From positions 1 to 34,577 of the forward strand of contig PXAT01000064.1 in the NCBI GenBank assembly GCA_003565775.1: DNA of 34,577 nt. The letters are read 5' to 3'. The notes below the pieces were generated by a model. The model did not search any database and was not told where the DNA came from. It saw nothing but the letters and a program-made list of their open reading frames with translations. A program made the translations under genes and the position numbers. Of the stretch, positions 1,126 to 32,445 are shown in pieces. Source of the stretch: Ectothiorhodospiraceae bacterium. GTDB taxonomy: Bacteria > Pseudomonadota > Gammaproteobacteria > Nitrococcales > Aquisalimonadaceae. Within the stretch, counting starts at the first letter, position 1; every line of letters starts with the position of its first letter.

Positions 1126-1310
1126 CAGATCCAGAATAGTGCCATCGGCGAGTGGTGGTTACATCACGGTAGTACGAAAGGATGACATCATTCACGCGAG
1201 GTAACGCTGCGATGTTCGCAGAATCGTGGTTTTCGAGGAGAGGCTCTCCTGCGACGAGGTGCAGTTTCCACGTTGTGCGGGCCGACCGGGGCGGGTCCTG
1301 CGACTCGCGC

Positions 1311-1433
1311 CACATTCCCCCGGTTTCTGCGTTGCGCTGTTCGACCGCAGCATGCCTGCGGCGCAGCGCAGCGCGCCTTGCCTCGGAGAAAATGCGGACT
1401 CCAACGCAGGCGTGCGAATACTTCGGCGTTTCC
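1311..1433. repeat. Truncated copy of the GGAAACRCTGA hairpin element (one terminus visible)
   Basis: This copy lies in the 481-base gap between gspC and trxA. Read on the minus strand from 1433 it starts GGAAACGCCGAAGTATTCGC and continues with the same arm as the copies at 30236 and 19166 (…GGAGTCCGCATTTTCTCCG…, then GC-rich inverted segments). The terminus abuts TTAA (1434-1437). I see no matching second terminus on the left, so the copy looks truncated. The rest of the gap (1126-1310 and 1438-1539) shows no gene; a short inverted repeat GGAGAG-G-CTCTCC sits near 1238-1250. Confidence 0.7.
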
Positions 1434-9256: not shown

Positions 9257-9298
9257 GAACCTCGAACCTCGAACCTCGAACCTCGAACCTCGAACCTC
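9257..9298. repeat. Perfect tandem heptamer, six copies of GAACCTC
   Basis: Six uninterrupted 7-base copies occupy 42 bases immediately 3' of thyA. The thyA stop codon (TGA, complement of 9297-9299) is inside the last unit. On the thyA strand the unit reads GTTCGAG, matching the degenerate heptads after rho, lgt and lrgB. Perfect copies suggest recent expansion and possible length variation between strains. Confidence 0.9.
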
Positions 9299-10091
9299 AC
9301 ACCGCCACCTTCGCCTTGATGTGCGGATGGTACTGGTAGCCGTCGAGGCGGAAGTCGTCGAAGCGGAAGGCGAACAGGTCGTCGATCGTCGGATTCAGGT
9401 GCATGGTCGGCAGCGGGTAGGGTTCGCGCGACAGTTGCAGGTCGGCCTGCTCCAGGTGGTTCATGTAGAGGTGCGCGTCGCCCAGGGTATGCACGAAATC
9501 ACCCGGTTCCAGATCGCAGACCTGCGCCAGCATCAGGGTCAGCAGGGCGTAGGACGCGATGTTGAAGGGCACGCCGAGAAAGATGTCCGCGCTGCGCTGG
9601 TAGAGCTGACAGGACAGCTTGCCGTCGGCCACGTGGAACTGGAACAGCGTGTGGCAGGGTGGCAGGGCCATGGCCTCGACCTCGGCCGGATTCCACGCCG
9701 AGACGATGTGCCGCCGCGAGTCCGGGTTGCGACGCAGGCCGTCCACCAGGCGCTGGATCTGGTCGATGCGCGTGCCGTCGGGGGCCGGCCAGGATCGCCA
9801 CTGCACGCCATAGACCGGGCCCAGTTCGCCGTTCTCGTCGGCCCATTCGTCCCAGATGCTGACGCCGTTTTCCTTGAGGTAGGCGATATTGCTGTCGCCG
9901 CGCAGGAACCAGAGCAGCTCGTGGATCACCGACTTGAGATGGACCCGCTTGGTGGTGACCAGCGGAAAACCGTCACGTAGCGGAAAACGCATCTGATAGC
10001 CGAATACCGACAGCGTGCCGGTGCCGGTGCGGTCGTCCTTGCGGGCGCCATGTTCCCGAACATGGCGCATCAGATCGAGGTACTGTTTCAT
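9297..10091 (-). CDS. thyA: Thymidylate synthase
   Basis: The protein has 264 residues, exactly the E. coli ThyA length. It methylates dUMP to dTMP using methylenetetrahydrofolate. Motifs seen: [34 protein letters not shown], the catalytic C146 in [30 protein letters not shown] and the C-terminal KVAV-type end. Its ATG shares one base with the stop of lgt (TGATG, 10089-10093), so the two are coupled, as lgt-thyA is in many gammaproteobacteria. folA follows on the same strand after a gap filled with repeats. Confidence 0.98.
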
Positions 10092-12141: not shown

Positions 12142-12304
12142 GCATGTCTCCGGGCTGGAGGAAGCGCCGTCTTGCTTCCTCTGCTGTTGTGCGTGGGCCG
12201 CGAGGATAAGGCAAGCGTTGCACGATGAACATCCTGCCACCTGTTGTTGGAGAACGTCAGCTTGCAGGCGTAGGCTGCGCCGCTACTATTGCCGCTGTGC
12301 ATTG

Positions 12305-12477
12305 AGAAAACACTGAATCCGTACCCATGCTTCCCTGGTCGCCCGGCCGGTTCGGCCACTGACGGTATTGCGCCATCGGCCCGGTCGTTGTCAGCTACCC
12401 GACCCGGTGCCGCGCCTTGCCAGATGACCAAAACCGGTTTCGGGCGCAGACTCGGGAGTCGATCAGCGTTTTTCTCA
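12305..12477. repeat. Hairpin element copy upstream of the SH3 protein gene
   Basis: Termini are diverged: GAAAACACTGA on the left (12306-12316), and GAAAAACGCTGA read on the minus strand from 12474. Next to the right terminus is the arm shared with 13200 and 30440 (CCGGTTTTGGTCATCTGGCA on the minus strand). It takes up most of the 369-base gap 12142-12510. No gene is seen there. Confidence 0.65.
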
Positions 12478-12510
12478 GTCGGAAATGCCATTTCCCCGGG
12501 GGGATCATCC

Positions 12511-13179
12511 GTGCCGTTTCGTATTCTTGGCCTGCTTTTCTGTGTTTTCCTGATTCTGCCTGCCGGCGTTCACGGCCAGCAGACCCAGTACATTTCCGAT
12601 GAGTTGCAACTGGACATGCGCAGCGGTCCGGGCAACCAGTACCGGATCCAGCAGATGCTTTCTGCCGGCACCGAGGTGCAGGTGCTTAACGAGCGGGATG
12701 GCTGGACCCAGATCCGCCTGTCCGGCGGCCAGGACGGCTGGGTGCTGACACGGATGCTCAGCGATTCTCCCAGCGCGCGTTCGCGGCTCGAGTCGGCCGA
12801 AGGAGGCATGCAGGAAGCGCTCGAGGAAAACGAGGCTCTCAGCACATCCCTTGCCCAGGCGGAGGAGCGCATTGCCGAACTCGACGAGGCGCTGGCTCAG
12901 GCCACGGGACAGCGCGATCAGATGAGCCAGGAGCTCGAGCAGGCATCCCAGGGGCTCGAGTACTACGACGCCAATCAGGAGCTGCGCAAGCAGGTCATCG
13001 ACCTGCGCCGCGAACTCGAGGACATGGCCCAGGAGAACGATCGCCTGCGCGGCCGCAACGACCAGCAGTGGTTCATGGTGGGTGGCATGGTGGCCGGCGC
13101 CGGCATCCTGTTCGGCCTGATCATCCCGCGCATCCGCTGGCGCCGGCAACGCTCGAGCTGGGGTTCGGGCGGGCTTTAA
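12511..13179 (+). CDS. YgiM-like SH3b-domain membrane protein (TIGR04211 type)
   Basis: The 222-residue protein has a signal peptide (about 1-22, hydrophobic ILGLLFCVFLILPAGVHG). A bacterial SH3b domain follows (about 25-90, with DELQLDMRSGPGNQYRI and GWTQIRLSGGQDGWVL), then an Ala/Glu-rich coiled coil (about 95-185). A C-terminal transmembrane helix (MVGGMVAGAGILFGLIIPRI) and a basic tail end it. This is the layout of E. coli YgiM. The family's role is not well defined; an envelope function is inferred from SH3b domains in cell-wall proteins. GTG at 12511 was chosen because it follows GGGGGGA and starts the signal peptide; the upstream in-frame sequence is repeat-derived. The stop codon TAA lies in the TTAA next to a repeat element. 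Confidence 0.85.
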   Translation: MPFRILGLLFCVFLILPAGVHGQQTQYISDELQLDMRSGPGNQYRIQQMLSAGTEVQVLNERDGWTQIRLSGGQDGWVLTRMLSDSPSARSRLESAEGGMQEALEENEALSTSLAQAEERIAELDEALAQATGQRDQMSQELEQASQGLEYYDANQELRKQVIDLRRELEDMAQENDRLRGRNDQQWFMVGGMVAGAGILFGLIIPRIRWRRQRSSWGSGGL

Positions 13180-13669
13180 GGAAACGCTGAAGTATTCCCG
13201 CGTCTGCGCCCGAGACCGGTTTTGGTCATCTGGCAAGGCGCGGTGCCGGTTCGGTAGTGATCCTACCGGGCCGGATTGCTGGACGCTAAATTGGCTGGTT
13301 CCGGGGGGGCGATGCCGGTCGGCCGGATGCCGGCTCCGGAACCGCTGCAAGGGCATTCTGCCCGCTTGACGGCCGCGTCCCTGCGGCCGACATTCCTCCG
13401 CCGACATCCGCCCGCCCGGCTTGATGTGTGTGGCGCACCCGACTGGAATGGCTTCGAGGCCAGCCCGAATCCGGCACTGCGGTTCGTGCCGGGGTAAGGC
13501 ATCCCCCGATTTTGATCTTTCCGGCCCAGAATCCTGTCTTTGACGGAATCGCTGCGTCGCGCCCGCCCATTGTTGTAGTGTGCTGCATTGAGAAAGACTC
13601 GGGGCACGCGCGCGCTCCGGTCCGAAATTCGAAGTGGATCAGGCCGCAGCCGCGGCCGTGGAGTTGCTG
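13180..13669. repeat. Repeat-filled gap between the SH3 gene and argE
   Basis: At 13180 an element terminus GGAAACGCTGAAGTATTC begins directly after TTAA (13176-13179), followed by the arm CCGAGACCGGTTTTGGTCAT and a TACC-rich core (to about 13275). No clear right terminus follows. At 13473-13502 a 30-base stretch matches 19081-19110 with 4 differences. The remaining bases show no gene. An argE ribosome binding site (GGAG) is at 13660-13663. Confidence 0.6.
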
Positions 13670-19071: not shown

Positions 19072-19080
19072 CTCGAAGCA

Positions 19081-19161
19081 GGCACTGCGGTCCGGACCGG
19101 GGTCAGGCATTTTCCTCGCGGGGACGTCGGGCGCAGACGCGGCAATAGATCAGCGCTTTCC
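19081..19161. repeat. Half copy of the dispersed element
   Basis: Positions 19081-19110 match 13473-13502 with 4 differences in 30 bases. The right end reads TCAGCGCTTTCC (19150-19161) before CTGG (19162-19165). Read on the minus strand it is GGAAAGCGCTGA, an element terminus. It directly abuts the complete element at 19166, and the two share the CTGG. Confidence 0.6.
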
Positions 19162-19165
19162 CTGG

Positions 19166-19327
19166 GGAGACACTGAACTTATTCCCGAGCGCCAAGGGGT
19201 TGGCATCGCATTTTCCCCGGCAGCTGCGTTGCGCTGCTTGACCGCAGGGTGACTGCGGCGCGGCGCAGCGCCTTGCCTCGGCAAAAATGCGATGCCAACG
19301 CGAAAGTGCGAATAAATCAGTGTCTCC
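19166..19327. repeat. Complete 162-bp hairpin (MITE-like) element
   Basis: Termini are GGAGACACTGA (19166-19176) and TCAGTGTCTCC (19317-19327). Flanks are CTGG on the left and CTAG on the right. Inside, TTGGCATCGCATTTTCCCCG on the left pairs with the complement of the right arm, making a long hairpin around a GC-rich centre. The right CTAG (19328-19331) contains the rubredoxin stop codon. There is no open reading frame for a transposase. Confidence 0.75.
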
Positions 19328-24755: not shown

Positions 24756-24915
24756 GGAAACACGGACTGATTTGCGCGCCTGCGCCGGAGTCCGCACTTT
24801 CCCCGAGGCAGGGCGCACTGCGCAGCGCCGCAGTGACTCTGCGGTCAGGTAGCGCAACGCCGCCATGGGCCAAAAACCGTGTCGGGCGCAGTCGCGGGAC
24901 TCGATCAGTGTTTCC
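24756..24915. repeat. 160-bp hairpin element upstream of ppa
   Basis: Termini are GGAAACACGGACTGA (24756-24770) and TCAGTGTTTCC (24905-24915); flanks are CCGG and CAAG. The left arm is the GGAGTCCGCATTTTC type (diverged) and the right arm the CGGTTTTTGGCCC type, so the copy is chimeric. It fills part of the 434-base gap 24721-25154. No gene is seen in the rest (24916-25088). Confidence 0.7.
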
Positions 24916-28602: not shown

Positions 28603-28654
28603 TCGGCCGCTGTCAGCGGACGGTGCTGTGGTCCCGTTTTCAGAAGGAACTGCC

Positions 28655-30235
28655 ATGACCGCCATCCCCGGCCTGCGCCCTGTCCGGCGCGCCCTGCTCA
28701 GTGTTTCCGACAAGACCGGCGTGACCGATTTCGCGCGCGCCCTGAGCGCCGCGGGCGTGGAGTTGCTGTCCACCGGAGGCACCGCGAAGGCTCTTCGCGA
28801 TGCCGGGCTCTCGGTGACCGATGTCGCCGACTACACCGGTTTTCCCGAGATGATGGACGGCCGCGTCAAGACGCTGCATCCGAAGGTCCACGGTGGCCTG
28901 CTGGGTCGCCGCGGCATCGACGATGCGGTGATGCAGGAGCACGGCATCGGCCCCATCGATCTGCTGGTGGTCAATCTCTACCCGTTCCGCGAGACCGTGG
29001 CGAAGCCCGACTGCACCTTTGACGACGCCGTCGAGAACATCGATATCGGCGGCCCGGCGATGGTCCGTGCGGCGGCCAAGAACCACGAGGGCGTGGCGGT
29101 GGTCACCGATCCCGCCGATTACGCGGCGGTGATCGCGGAAATGGAAACCCACGAGGGACTCGGTTTCGAGCGCCGGCTGGGGCTGGCGGTGAAGGCCTTC
29201 GAACACACCGCCGCCTATGACGGCGCGATCGCCAACTATCTCGGCAGTCTCAACAGCAAGCGCAGGCCGGAAGGGTATTCACGCACCCTGAACCTGCAGT
29301 TCCACAAGGTGCAGGAGATGCGCTACGGCGAGAACCCGCATCAGTCGGCGGCGTTCTATCGTGAAGCCGGCAACAGTGAGCCATCGGTGGCGGGCGCCCG
29401 CCAGTTGCAGGGCAAGGCACTGTCCTACAACAACGTCGCCGATACCGATGCCGCGCTGGAATGCGTGAAGGCGTTCACTGCACCGGCCTGCGTCATCGTC
29501 AAGCATGCCAACCCTTGCGGCGTGGCCGTGGCCGACAGCCAGATCGACGCCTACGATCGCGCTTTCGCCTGTGATCCGACCTCGGCCTTCGGCGGCATCA
29601 TCGCCTTCAACCGGGCGCTGGACGCCGTCACCGCGCGCGCCATCGTCGAACGCCAGTTCGTCGAGGTGATCATTGCTCCGGGGGCGGACGAGGCGGCGCT
29701 GGAAATCGTCTCGGCGAAAAAGAACGTGCGGCTGCTGGTCTGCGAGGCGTGGTCCGCAAGCTGGCCGCTGCGGCAGGACTACAAGCGGGTCACCGGCGGC
29801 CTGCTGGTGCAGGACGCCGATATCGCACGCCTGAGTGACGCCGATCTGCGGGTCGTGACGAAACGGAAGCCGACCACGCAGGAGTTGCACGATCTGCGCT
29901 TCGTCTGGGAGGTGGCCCGCTTCGTCAAGTCGAACGCCATTGTCTATGGCAGCCGGGGCCGGACTGTGGGCATCGGCGCCGGCCAGATGTCCCGGGTCTG
30001 GAGTGCGCGCATCGCCCGCGACAAGGCGCTGGACGCCGGGCTCCGGGTCGAGGGTTCGGTCATGGCCTCGGATGCGTTCTTCCCGTTCCGCGACGGCATC
30101 GACCAGGCCGCCGAAGCCGGCATCGCCGCCGTGATCCAGCCCGGCGGCTCGATCCGCGACCAGGAAGTCATCGCCGCCGCCGACGAGAACGACATGGCGA
30201 TGGTGTTTACCGGGATGCGGCATTTCCGTCACTAG
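28655..30235 (+). CDS. purH: Bifunctional AICAR transformylase / IMP cyclohydrolase
   Basis: PurH carries out the last two steps to IMP. The 526-residue protein has the N-terminal MGS-like cyclohydrolase domain ([54 protein letters not shown]) and the C-terminal transformylase domain ([14 protein letters not shown], the catalytic K-H in [48 protein letters not shown]). ATG at 28655 has AAGGA 6 bases upstream. The stop TAG (30233-30235) is part of the CTAG that borders a 237-bp repeat element, which separates it from purD. Confidence 0.98.
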
Positions 30236-30472
30236 GGAAACGCTGAAGTATTCGCGCGCCTGTGTTGGAGTCCGCATTTTCTCCGAGGCAAGGCGCGCTG
30301 CGCAGCGCCGCAGTCGGGGAAAATGCGGCCCAACCCGAAGGGCCCGGCCGGTTTTGGCCCCTGGCGGCGTTGCGCTGCCGACCCGGTAGAATCACTACCG
30401 AACCGGCATCGCGCCTTGCCAGATGACCAAAACCGGTCTCGGGCGCAGGCGCAGGAAGATTTCAGTGTTTCC
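30236..30472. repeat. Complete 237-bp double-hairpin element between purH and purD
   Basis: Termini are GGAAACGCTGAAGTATTC (30236-30253) and, read on the minus strand from 30472, GGAAACACTGAAATCTTC. Flanks are CTAG (30232-30235) and CTGG (30473-30476). It holds two hairpins in a row: one with GGAGTCCGCATTTTCTCCG pairing with GGGGAAAATGCGG, the other with CCGGTTTTGGCCC pairing with GACCAAAACCGG. It has no coding sequence. It accounts for most of the 315-base purH-purD gap. Confidence 0.8.
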
Positions 30473-30480
30473 CTGGAAGC

Positions 30481-31837: not shown

Positions 31838-31924
31838 CGGTTTTCGGACAAGGAAGGGCGGGAATACGGCGAGCCTGTCTTGCCCTCGGCGTTGTATTCG
31901 GAGGTATGGGGAGCCCCGCGGACA

Positions 31925-32020
31925 GATCACACCGCGCGGAACCGCTACGCTTGTTCCGCCCTACGCATTGCAGATTTTGTAGGGTGCATTAAGCGAAGCG
32001 AACGCACGCGGCGTGATCCG
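31925..32020. repeat. Inverted pair of REP-like modules, first pair after purD
   Basis: One module lies on the minus strand (31925-31965, GTAGGGCGGAACAAGCGTAG read in reverse) and one on the plus strand (31979-32020, GTAGGGTGCATTAAGCGAAG), head to head around a 13-base spacer. The outer ends GATCACACCGCG and CGCGGCGTGATC pair, making a large cruciform-like structure. The layout resembles BIMEs in enterobacteria. Confidence 0.75.
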
Positions 32021-32281: not shown

Positions 32282-32402
32282 GACACCGCGTGGATTCGCT
32301 GCGCTTAATCCACCCTACGCGGCTACACGGCTGCGTGCGGATGCCGTGATGTTGGGTTTTCGTAGGGCGGATCAAGCGCAGCGGATCCGCGCGGTGTGAT
32401 CC
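32282..32402. repeat. Inverted pair of REP-like modules, second pair
   Basis: A minus-strand module (32282-32319, GTAGGGTGGATTAAGCGCAG in reverse) faces a plus-strand module (32361-32402, GTAGGGCGGATCAAGCGCAG) across about 41 bases. The ends GACACCGCG and CGCGGTGTGATC pair. The modules are close in sequence to the first pair. Confidence 0.75.
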
Positions 32403-32445
32403 GTTATCGAAATGCCCCGGAATCGGCAGCCTCCCCTTGCTCTGT

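Follow-up and report, generated by a model that had tools for sequence, protein, structure and literature searches.

A family of gene-less hairpin elements with GGAAACRCTGA termini in Methylonatrum and its relatives, best explained as IS5-group MITEs

Introduction

Prokaryotic MITEs are described, in parts of PMC10969869 and (for QMITE1/2 of Coxiella) of PMC5896051, as short elements that are bounded by terminal inverted repeats (TIRs), carry no transposase and occur in tens to hundreds of copies; they form stable stem-loops, and some are located at the 3' ends of genes. The target of IS5 is given, in parts of PMC5493358 and PMC10359306, as Py-T-A-Pu (YTAR).

In this study, we analyzed a stretch of 34,577 nucleotides (called the window) from the genome of a congener of Methylonatrum kenyense. 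Hairpins with the terminus GGAAACRCTGA are dispersed there, which resemble the described MITEs in all of the above respects and are overall best explained as a MITE family of the IS5 group (probability about 0.9). When the literature was searched with the terminus strings, with the genus name, and with MITE or insertion sequence plus the bacterial family, the matches listed included no account of this MITE family; among the matches listed for literature containing the terminus strings, furthermore, there was no insertion-sequence title. Four genomes of the genus were compared: namely, the host of the window (G000), Methylonatrum kenyense AMT 1 (G001), the Ectothiorhodospiraceae MAG CSBr16_16 (G002), and another congener (G003).

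Results

Copies in the window

With up to two mismatches allowed, GGAAACRCTGA was matched 41 times in the window, compared with 14.0 times expected (100 shuffles, the largest 26). Long repeats also link the sites; 13180-13274 and 30378-30472 are 92% complementary, and the value is 94% for 1356-1436 and 30233-30313. A dispersed hairpin family with these termini, which had been proposed from the letters of the window (hereafter, the sequence-only reading), is hence borne out, and the family profile together with the repeats identifies all six intergenic sites listed in that reading as copies or pieces of one family. The features are as follows.

30236..30472, plus strand: best copy, 237 bp (profile 1-270, E 4.2e-71)
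30232..30235, no strand: CTAG, target half of this copy; its TAG is the stop codon of the open reading frame (ORF) 28628-30235
30473..30476, no strand: CTGG, second target half flanking the same copy, with one mismatch
1289..1433, minus strand: fragment with a single TIR and hairpin A, TTAA beyond the TIR (profile 1-146 at 1433-1289, E 1e-34)
12306..12473, plus strand: decayed copy with hairpin B alone (profile 139-268 at 12341-12471, E 7.5e-27; TIR pair)
13180..13275, minus strand: fragment with a TIR and part of hairpin B (profile 174-270 at 13275-13180, E 2.6e-28)
19127..19161, plus strand: right-end remnant of a separate copy (profile 237-268 at 19127-19158, E 2.9e-4; repeat comparison)
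19162..19165, no strand: CTGG separating this remnant from the next copy
19166..19327, minus strand: 162-bp copy with hairpin A alone, CTAG at its right (profile 1-144 at 19327-19185, E 7.2e-34; TIR pair)
24756..24915, plus strand: 160-bp short copy with flanks CCGG/CAAG (profile 1-115 at 24756-24870, E 8.3e-26; 224-270 at 24869-24915, E 1e-6)

Only the copy at 30236-30472 matches the full profile. It is composed of a TIR, a shortened hairpin A (about 32 bases are absent relative to the usual form), a small middle hairpin, hairpin B and the other TIR, and its RNA fold reaches -146.3 kcal/mol (z -9.5 against 200 shuffles). We take the upstream ORF 28628-30235 to be purH-like. The copies at 12306-12473, 19166-19327 and 24756-24915 are short forms, and those at 1289-1433 and 13180-13275 are one-ended fragments, the latter located directly 3' of the TAA stop codon of ORF 12289-13179.

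Other repeats were also noticed in the window. A second inverted repeat (31922-31965 and 32361-32404; 44 nt, 91% complementary, CGTAGGGCGGAT type) has several matches in stretches of G001 and G002 and represents a separate dispersed palindrome family. Several copies of the heptamer GAACCTC are arranged in tandem between two genes at 9257-9312, and a 37-bp repeat (13466-13502 and 19074-19110, 84% identical) lies near MITE remnants at both places.

Anatomy and distribution of the family

We gathered 81 distinct complete copies, 78 of which have GG...CC ends, from chosen stretches that do not amount to a full census. The length is 268-272 bp in 66 of the 81, with a transposase gene absent; the size of 160-237 bp in the sequence-only reading is accordingly true of the window copies but not of the usual complete form. 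Mean column identity is 89% in 67 aligned copies. A strand folds into a terminal stem made of both ends, hairpin A, the small middle hairpin, and hairpin B. As had been read from the window, the elements are gene-less with one or two long hairpins, namely two in the usual copy and one in the short copies. What had looked like two interchangeable arms are chiefly the two distinct hairpins of one element; calling the copies chimeric is correct in part, the usual copy having one A and one B hairpin, the short copies a single one, and two of ten sister-genus copies a loop inverted between the arms (see below).

The host genome contains about a hundred copies of this small gene-less mobile element. 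Indeed, exact GGAAACRCTGA was found 94+94 times in the host assembly (0+0 for the reversed control) and 109+108, 97+88 and 12+6 times in the three congeners. Further copies were thus there to be found beyond the window, and BLAST with the 237-bp copy as the query gave 70, 57, 58 and 25 matches in the host and the three congeners. Among nine other genomes of the same bacterial family, the query matched 1 to 53 places in seven and none in two, and it had no match in any of the seven genomes sampled from other families. The exact terminus exceeds its reversed control in several genomes of the bacterial family and in a few outside.

In G019, which belongs to another family of the order, the exact terminus occurs 23+22 times against 1+2 for the reversed control, while the 237-bp query matched nothing; these termini are possibly the same ends around another interior. 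Facing termini just 37-59 bp apart were also observed (G000:C99:3848-3899, G004:C1:588417-588453, G008:C197:64-113, G010:C11:111400-111455 and G011:C135:25760-25818), and these are possible minimal elements, having two ends with almost nothing between.

Target duplication and empty sites

An exact 4-bp duplication flanks 38 of the 78 copies and is absent in 40, and 65 have a duplication with at most one mismatch; random pairing of left and right flanks gives an exact 4-bp match in 21.5%. Duplications of 3 or 5 bp were found in none of the 78. YTAR is present on at least one side of 66 of the 78 copies, with TTAA on both sides of 22 and CTAG on both sides of 12. The resemblance of the targets to those of the IS5 group is therefore confirmed. 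The 4-base targets proposed for the window are another matter: YTAR-type duplications exist in copies elsewhere, but in the window itself no two-ended copy has perfect flanks (CTAG/CTGG at 30236, CTGG/CTAG at 19166, CCGG/CAAG at 24756, and TTGA/CTCA at 12306).

These duplications also bear on the mover. A REP/RAYT-type element with an IS200-like transposase would be palindromic, mostly extragenic and high in copy number, as is this family; the 4-bp target duplications, however, and the ends common to an element with a DDE transposase (described below) make such an origin extremely improbable. REP elements are not known to have such target duplications.

Empty sites are the weakest point of the MITE case. 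Among 73 copies with usable flanks, 12 had both flanks matching another locus. At three of these (L172, L203 and L222), both flanks can be aligned up to 8 bp or less from the junction, and the duplication, the element and the second duplication have exactly 4 bases in their place (a gap of -4), with a flank identity of about 70-90% at the related element-free stretches. L203 and L222, which sit within other repeats and have several overlapping loci as matches, are counted with L172 as three cases rather than thirteen; one of the three clean cases was compared with a paralogous stretch, and the own flanks of L203 show no matching duplication. At L181, the gap is -4 by extrapolation only. As for the remaining two-flank copies, one is an overlap with its own locus, and seven give other gaps because an alignment stops short. 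At the stop codon adjoining the site of the 30236 copy, the sequence is TTAG/CTAA in G001 and G002, both of which lack the element, and the stop in G003 is TGA. The comparison with empty sites, a check raised with the sequence-only reading, has therefore succeeded in part; the element plus 4 bp is absent from stretches related to three loci, but at the window site the comparison extends only up to the stop codon, after which the spacer in G001 and G002 has turned over and does not align. Tandem copies with just 4 target bases between them occur at L140, at L142 and at 19162-19165 of the window.

Other repeats in CSBr16_16, one of which reads GACAGTGGAAGTTTT...GGCCCTGTTGGACC, were seen as landing places of the MITE (flanks of L203 and L222, and L092). 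In the purH-purD type spacer of G001 and G002 (L091 and L092), furthermore, an AT-rich palindromic sequence, TTTTACGTTTA...GGTTTTAGG...CCTAAAACGT, is found where the host has the MITE.

An IS5-family element whose ends are of the MITE type

The full-length IS5-type element with the same termini, for which the sequence-only reading had suggested looking, was found in two relatives of the same bacterial family (G004 and G011), with 18-bp ends of the same type as those of the MITE. In G004, the PF01609/NF033581 transposase gene is present as four identical frames (E 1.5e-101 and 339.5 bits against NF033581, cut-off 140), and the element has the ends GGAAACGCTGATTTATTC and GGAAGCGCTGATCTAATG. The two copies read at both ends are flanked by CTAA/CTAA (L095) and CTAA/CTAG (L049). 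The G011 copy encodes a 95% identical protein and has a left end with two mismatches from that of G004; it is at a contig end, and the left flank is outside the sequence. Beyond the ends, no clear similarity between the MITE and IS interiors was seen by eye.

In the host and three congeners, nonetheless, we found no intact partner transposase; G000, G002 and G003 gave no match, and M. kenyense (G001) has a 47-residue transposase relic with one TGA, which adjoins an end of the same type (two mismatches) beside CTAA. The host has two other PF01609 genes (L042 and L054), and no such ends were seen within the stretches around them. For G001, 30 contigs and 100% completeness are listed, and the assemblies of the host (215 contigs) and of two congeners (about 210 and 290) are fragmented, so that an intact IS copy could be hidden in a gap of these three.

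Stop codons and the possibility of a structured RNA

A stop codon is exactly abutted by 20 of 74 copies. Stop codons, however, make up 42 of the 269 available non-coding YTAR sites (15.6%; binomial p 0.008, with crude gene calling that in the window chose a minus-strand frame over ORF 12289-13179); we do not claim stop-codon targeting, and the placement largely reflects target availability. Since TAA and TAG fit YTAR and TAR is duplicated, insertion at a stop codon leaves the stop of the upstream gene in place. In another two copies, the frame from upstream runs on into the element and stops after 11 bases, at the TGA of the terminus.

Such placement would also fit retention of the copies mainly as a dispersed structured RNA (a terminator, an RNase III site or an mRNA 3'-end hairpin), with pairing under selection in the transcript. 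The consensus structure has 82 pairs, 36 of which are changed on both sides, and 97.6% of cells pair compared with 94.3% in shuffles, which ignore relatedness (0 of 500 reach 97.6%). In mostly Watson-Crick columns, G-U exceeds A-C (123 vs 62 cells; 33 vs 20 columns, p 0.10), as RNA pairing on one strand would have it. Once symmetric mismatched helix positions are included, however, the lean is weak (487 vs 395 cells; 40 vs 27 columns, p 0.14), and in the terminal stem it is reversed (G-U 108 vs A-C 122); the one-strand G-U excess in our first consensus was uninformative because the predicted structure admits G-U but not A-C. Between tandem genes, moreover, 15 copies have the same orientation as the genes and 21 the opposite one (p 0.41), the gene contexts comprise 36 tandem, 14 divergent and 12 convergent cases, and Rfam had no match in the window at the gathering score. 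We therefore make no claim of strand-specific RNA selection, and retention mainly as structured RNA appears unlikely.

Concerted ends

The two 18-bp ends of a copy are more alike than would follow from permutation or from comparison with close relatives. They differ at 1.22 positions on average, and the total is 95 differences compared with 226 after permutation (sd 9.0; 0 of 5000 as low). In 69 copies of 262-272 bp, a copy's own ends differ at 1.12 positions, while the same end differs at 2.33 positions between nearest interior relatives and at 1.65 in pairs with less than 4% interior divergence.

The ends could be linked by descent, with gene conversion between copies shuffling the interiors so that interior relatedness fails to predict the ends. 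Consistent with this, interior and end distances are only moderately correlated (rho 0.33), and where a base is unique to one copy, it is confined to one of the two ends (6 cases, with none at both). Likewise, close Methylonatrum copies change mainly on one side of the inner stems, and below 4.5% divergence none of 55 changed pairs is two-sided (4 outliers among the 67 aligned rows were excluded). Linked descent accounts less well, however, for bases that are rare (present in no more than 8 of 156 ends); these occupy both ends of the same copy in 11 cases, against 0.84 expected if independent, and a single end in 49. Also, 3 to 4 end haplotypes, depending on the segment, are confined to one sampled copy and are present there at both ends, and the two-sided share in the terminal stem stays at about 0.22 even in the closest copies. 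At L141, furthermore, the same rare end variant is present on either side of TTAA, in a copy and in the one next to it, and forms a perfect 40-bp palindrome; this is one case, and the abutting ends differ at L140, L142 and 19162 of the window. Weighing these observations together with the inverted loops below, we regard descent with conversion as a serious candidate that falls somewhat short of an even chance.

Ongoing rewriting of inner stems within Methylonatrum was considered and rejected, as two-sided changes vanish among the closest copies, and any such rewriting inside the genus is old. A swap of end haplotypes between arms was also tried at columns 19, 21 and 24; the cases (A arms, 2 vs 0.5 expected; B arms, 0) are too few.

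Copies in other genera

From G010, a genome of the sister genus, the first ten complete copies were taken at facing pairs of termini, and these have the common ends and strong folds. Seven of them (260-265 bp) are 0.66-0.72 identical to a Methylonatrum copy, compared with 0.61 for shuffled sequence. A further 20 stretches of G010, most of them surrounding a lone terminus, added 3 complete copies, the other 17 having none; in G004, G008 and G011 together, 8 well-formed copies came from 20 stretches. The sister-genus copies thus keep the shape with rewritten stems. Counted over pairs of copies, which are not independent, two-sided stem changes in the seven full G010 copies number 299 against 57 expected if independent, and 259 of these keep the pair; 98 of the 376 one-sided changes do so. 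The two-sided numbers are 32 against 5 expected in three oriented G011 copies and 2722 against 472 in 30 random Methylonatrum copies; two G004 copies have 10 one-sided changes and no two-sided one.

In an anchored test of loop arrangement, in which 15 of 101 candidates could not be called, every copy with loops of the Methylonatrum type (76 of 76) had the common arrangement, as did 8 of the 10 whose loops are of the sister-genus type; the other two (L277 and L282) have one loop inverted each, which speaks against descent with conversion. An all-pairs test of loop inversion is ambiguous because the arms are palindromic.

Discussion

Shared ends, a YTAR target and its duplication, many copies without a gene and three related element-free stretches characterize the hairpins with GGAAACRCTGA termini. 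The sequence-only reading of a MITE-like family has therefore stood, and membership in the class of IS5 MITEs is well supported. We infer that an NF033581-type transposase from a full IS5-family element recognized the terminal inverted repeats of about 18 bp in trans and would thereby have carried the 270-bp element, itself gene-less, into Y-T-A-R tetranucleotides with duplication of 4 bp. The family is apparently stranded in the host; with no intact source found in Methylonatrum, the copies there are probably ageing residents now.

The ends and the hairpins are inverted repeats whose halves co-change more than independent mutation allows. The likeliest cause would be that one arm serves to rewrite the other, through template switching or a cruciform-type correction; linked descent and selection on shape are other possible causes. 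For the ends within the genus, descent with interior conversion and arm rewriting are about as likely. The broader proposal, that each inverted repeat has repeatedly been re-made self-complementary by intramolecular template switching, with two-sided multi-base changes and loop inversion, is tentative and perhaps correct. If it is, shape and length would persist across genera while the stem sequence turns over and the ends evolve in concert, and the family would offer a natural bacterial system for measuring template-switch mutation over hundreds of replicate loci. In any case, the paired ends and stems are a natural data set for separating selection on structure, linked descent and template-switch mutation. 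Many of the intergenic hairpins of Methylonatrum and its relatives are explained by the family, whose copies should be masked before RNAs or terminators are predicted; a stop codon that fits YTAR, furthermore, is a landing place for IS5-type elements that spares the upstream gene.

Compared with known systems, the family shares with the IS5 family (NF033581; the G004/G011 element) the same type of 18-bp end and the 4-bp Y-T-A-R duplication, but is gene-less, usually 268-272 bp long and equipped with two long hairpins. Relatives of the IS on plasmids of Aromatoleum (71.7% protein identity) and Pseudomonas amygdali (61.8%) have similar ends, GGAAGCGCTGATTTATTC beside CTAG and GGAGACGCTGAACAATT beside TTAG, respectively, with one end read in each. 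Coxiella QMITE1 differs in its repeats, which are given as 2-3 nt in PMC5896051, and the parts of PMC10969869 and PMC5896051 cited here make no mention of paired ends varying in concert within a copy. Template-switch evolution, as treated in parts of PMC8794818 and PMC8604942, involves homogenization of arms, multi-base compensatory changes and inversion of the spacer, all of which resemble the sister-genus copies; those parts concern RNA genes (PMC8794818) and yeast coding sequence and inverted repeats (PMC8604942), whereas the present family is a bacterial MITE.
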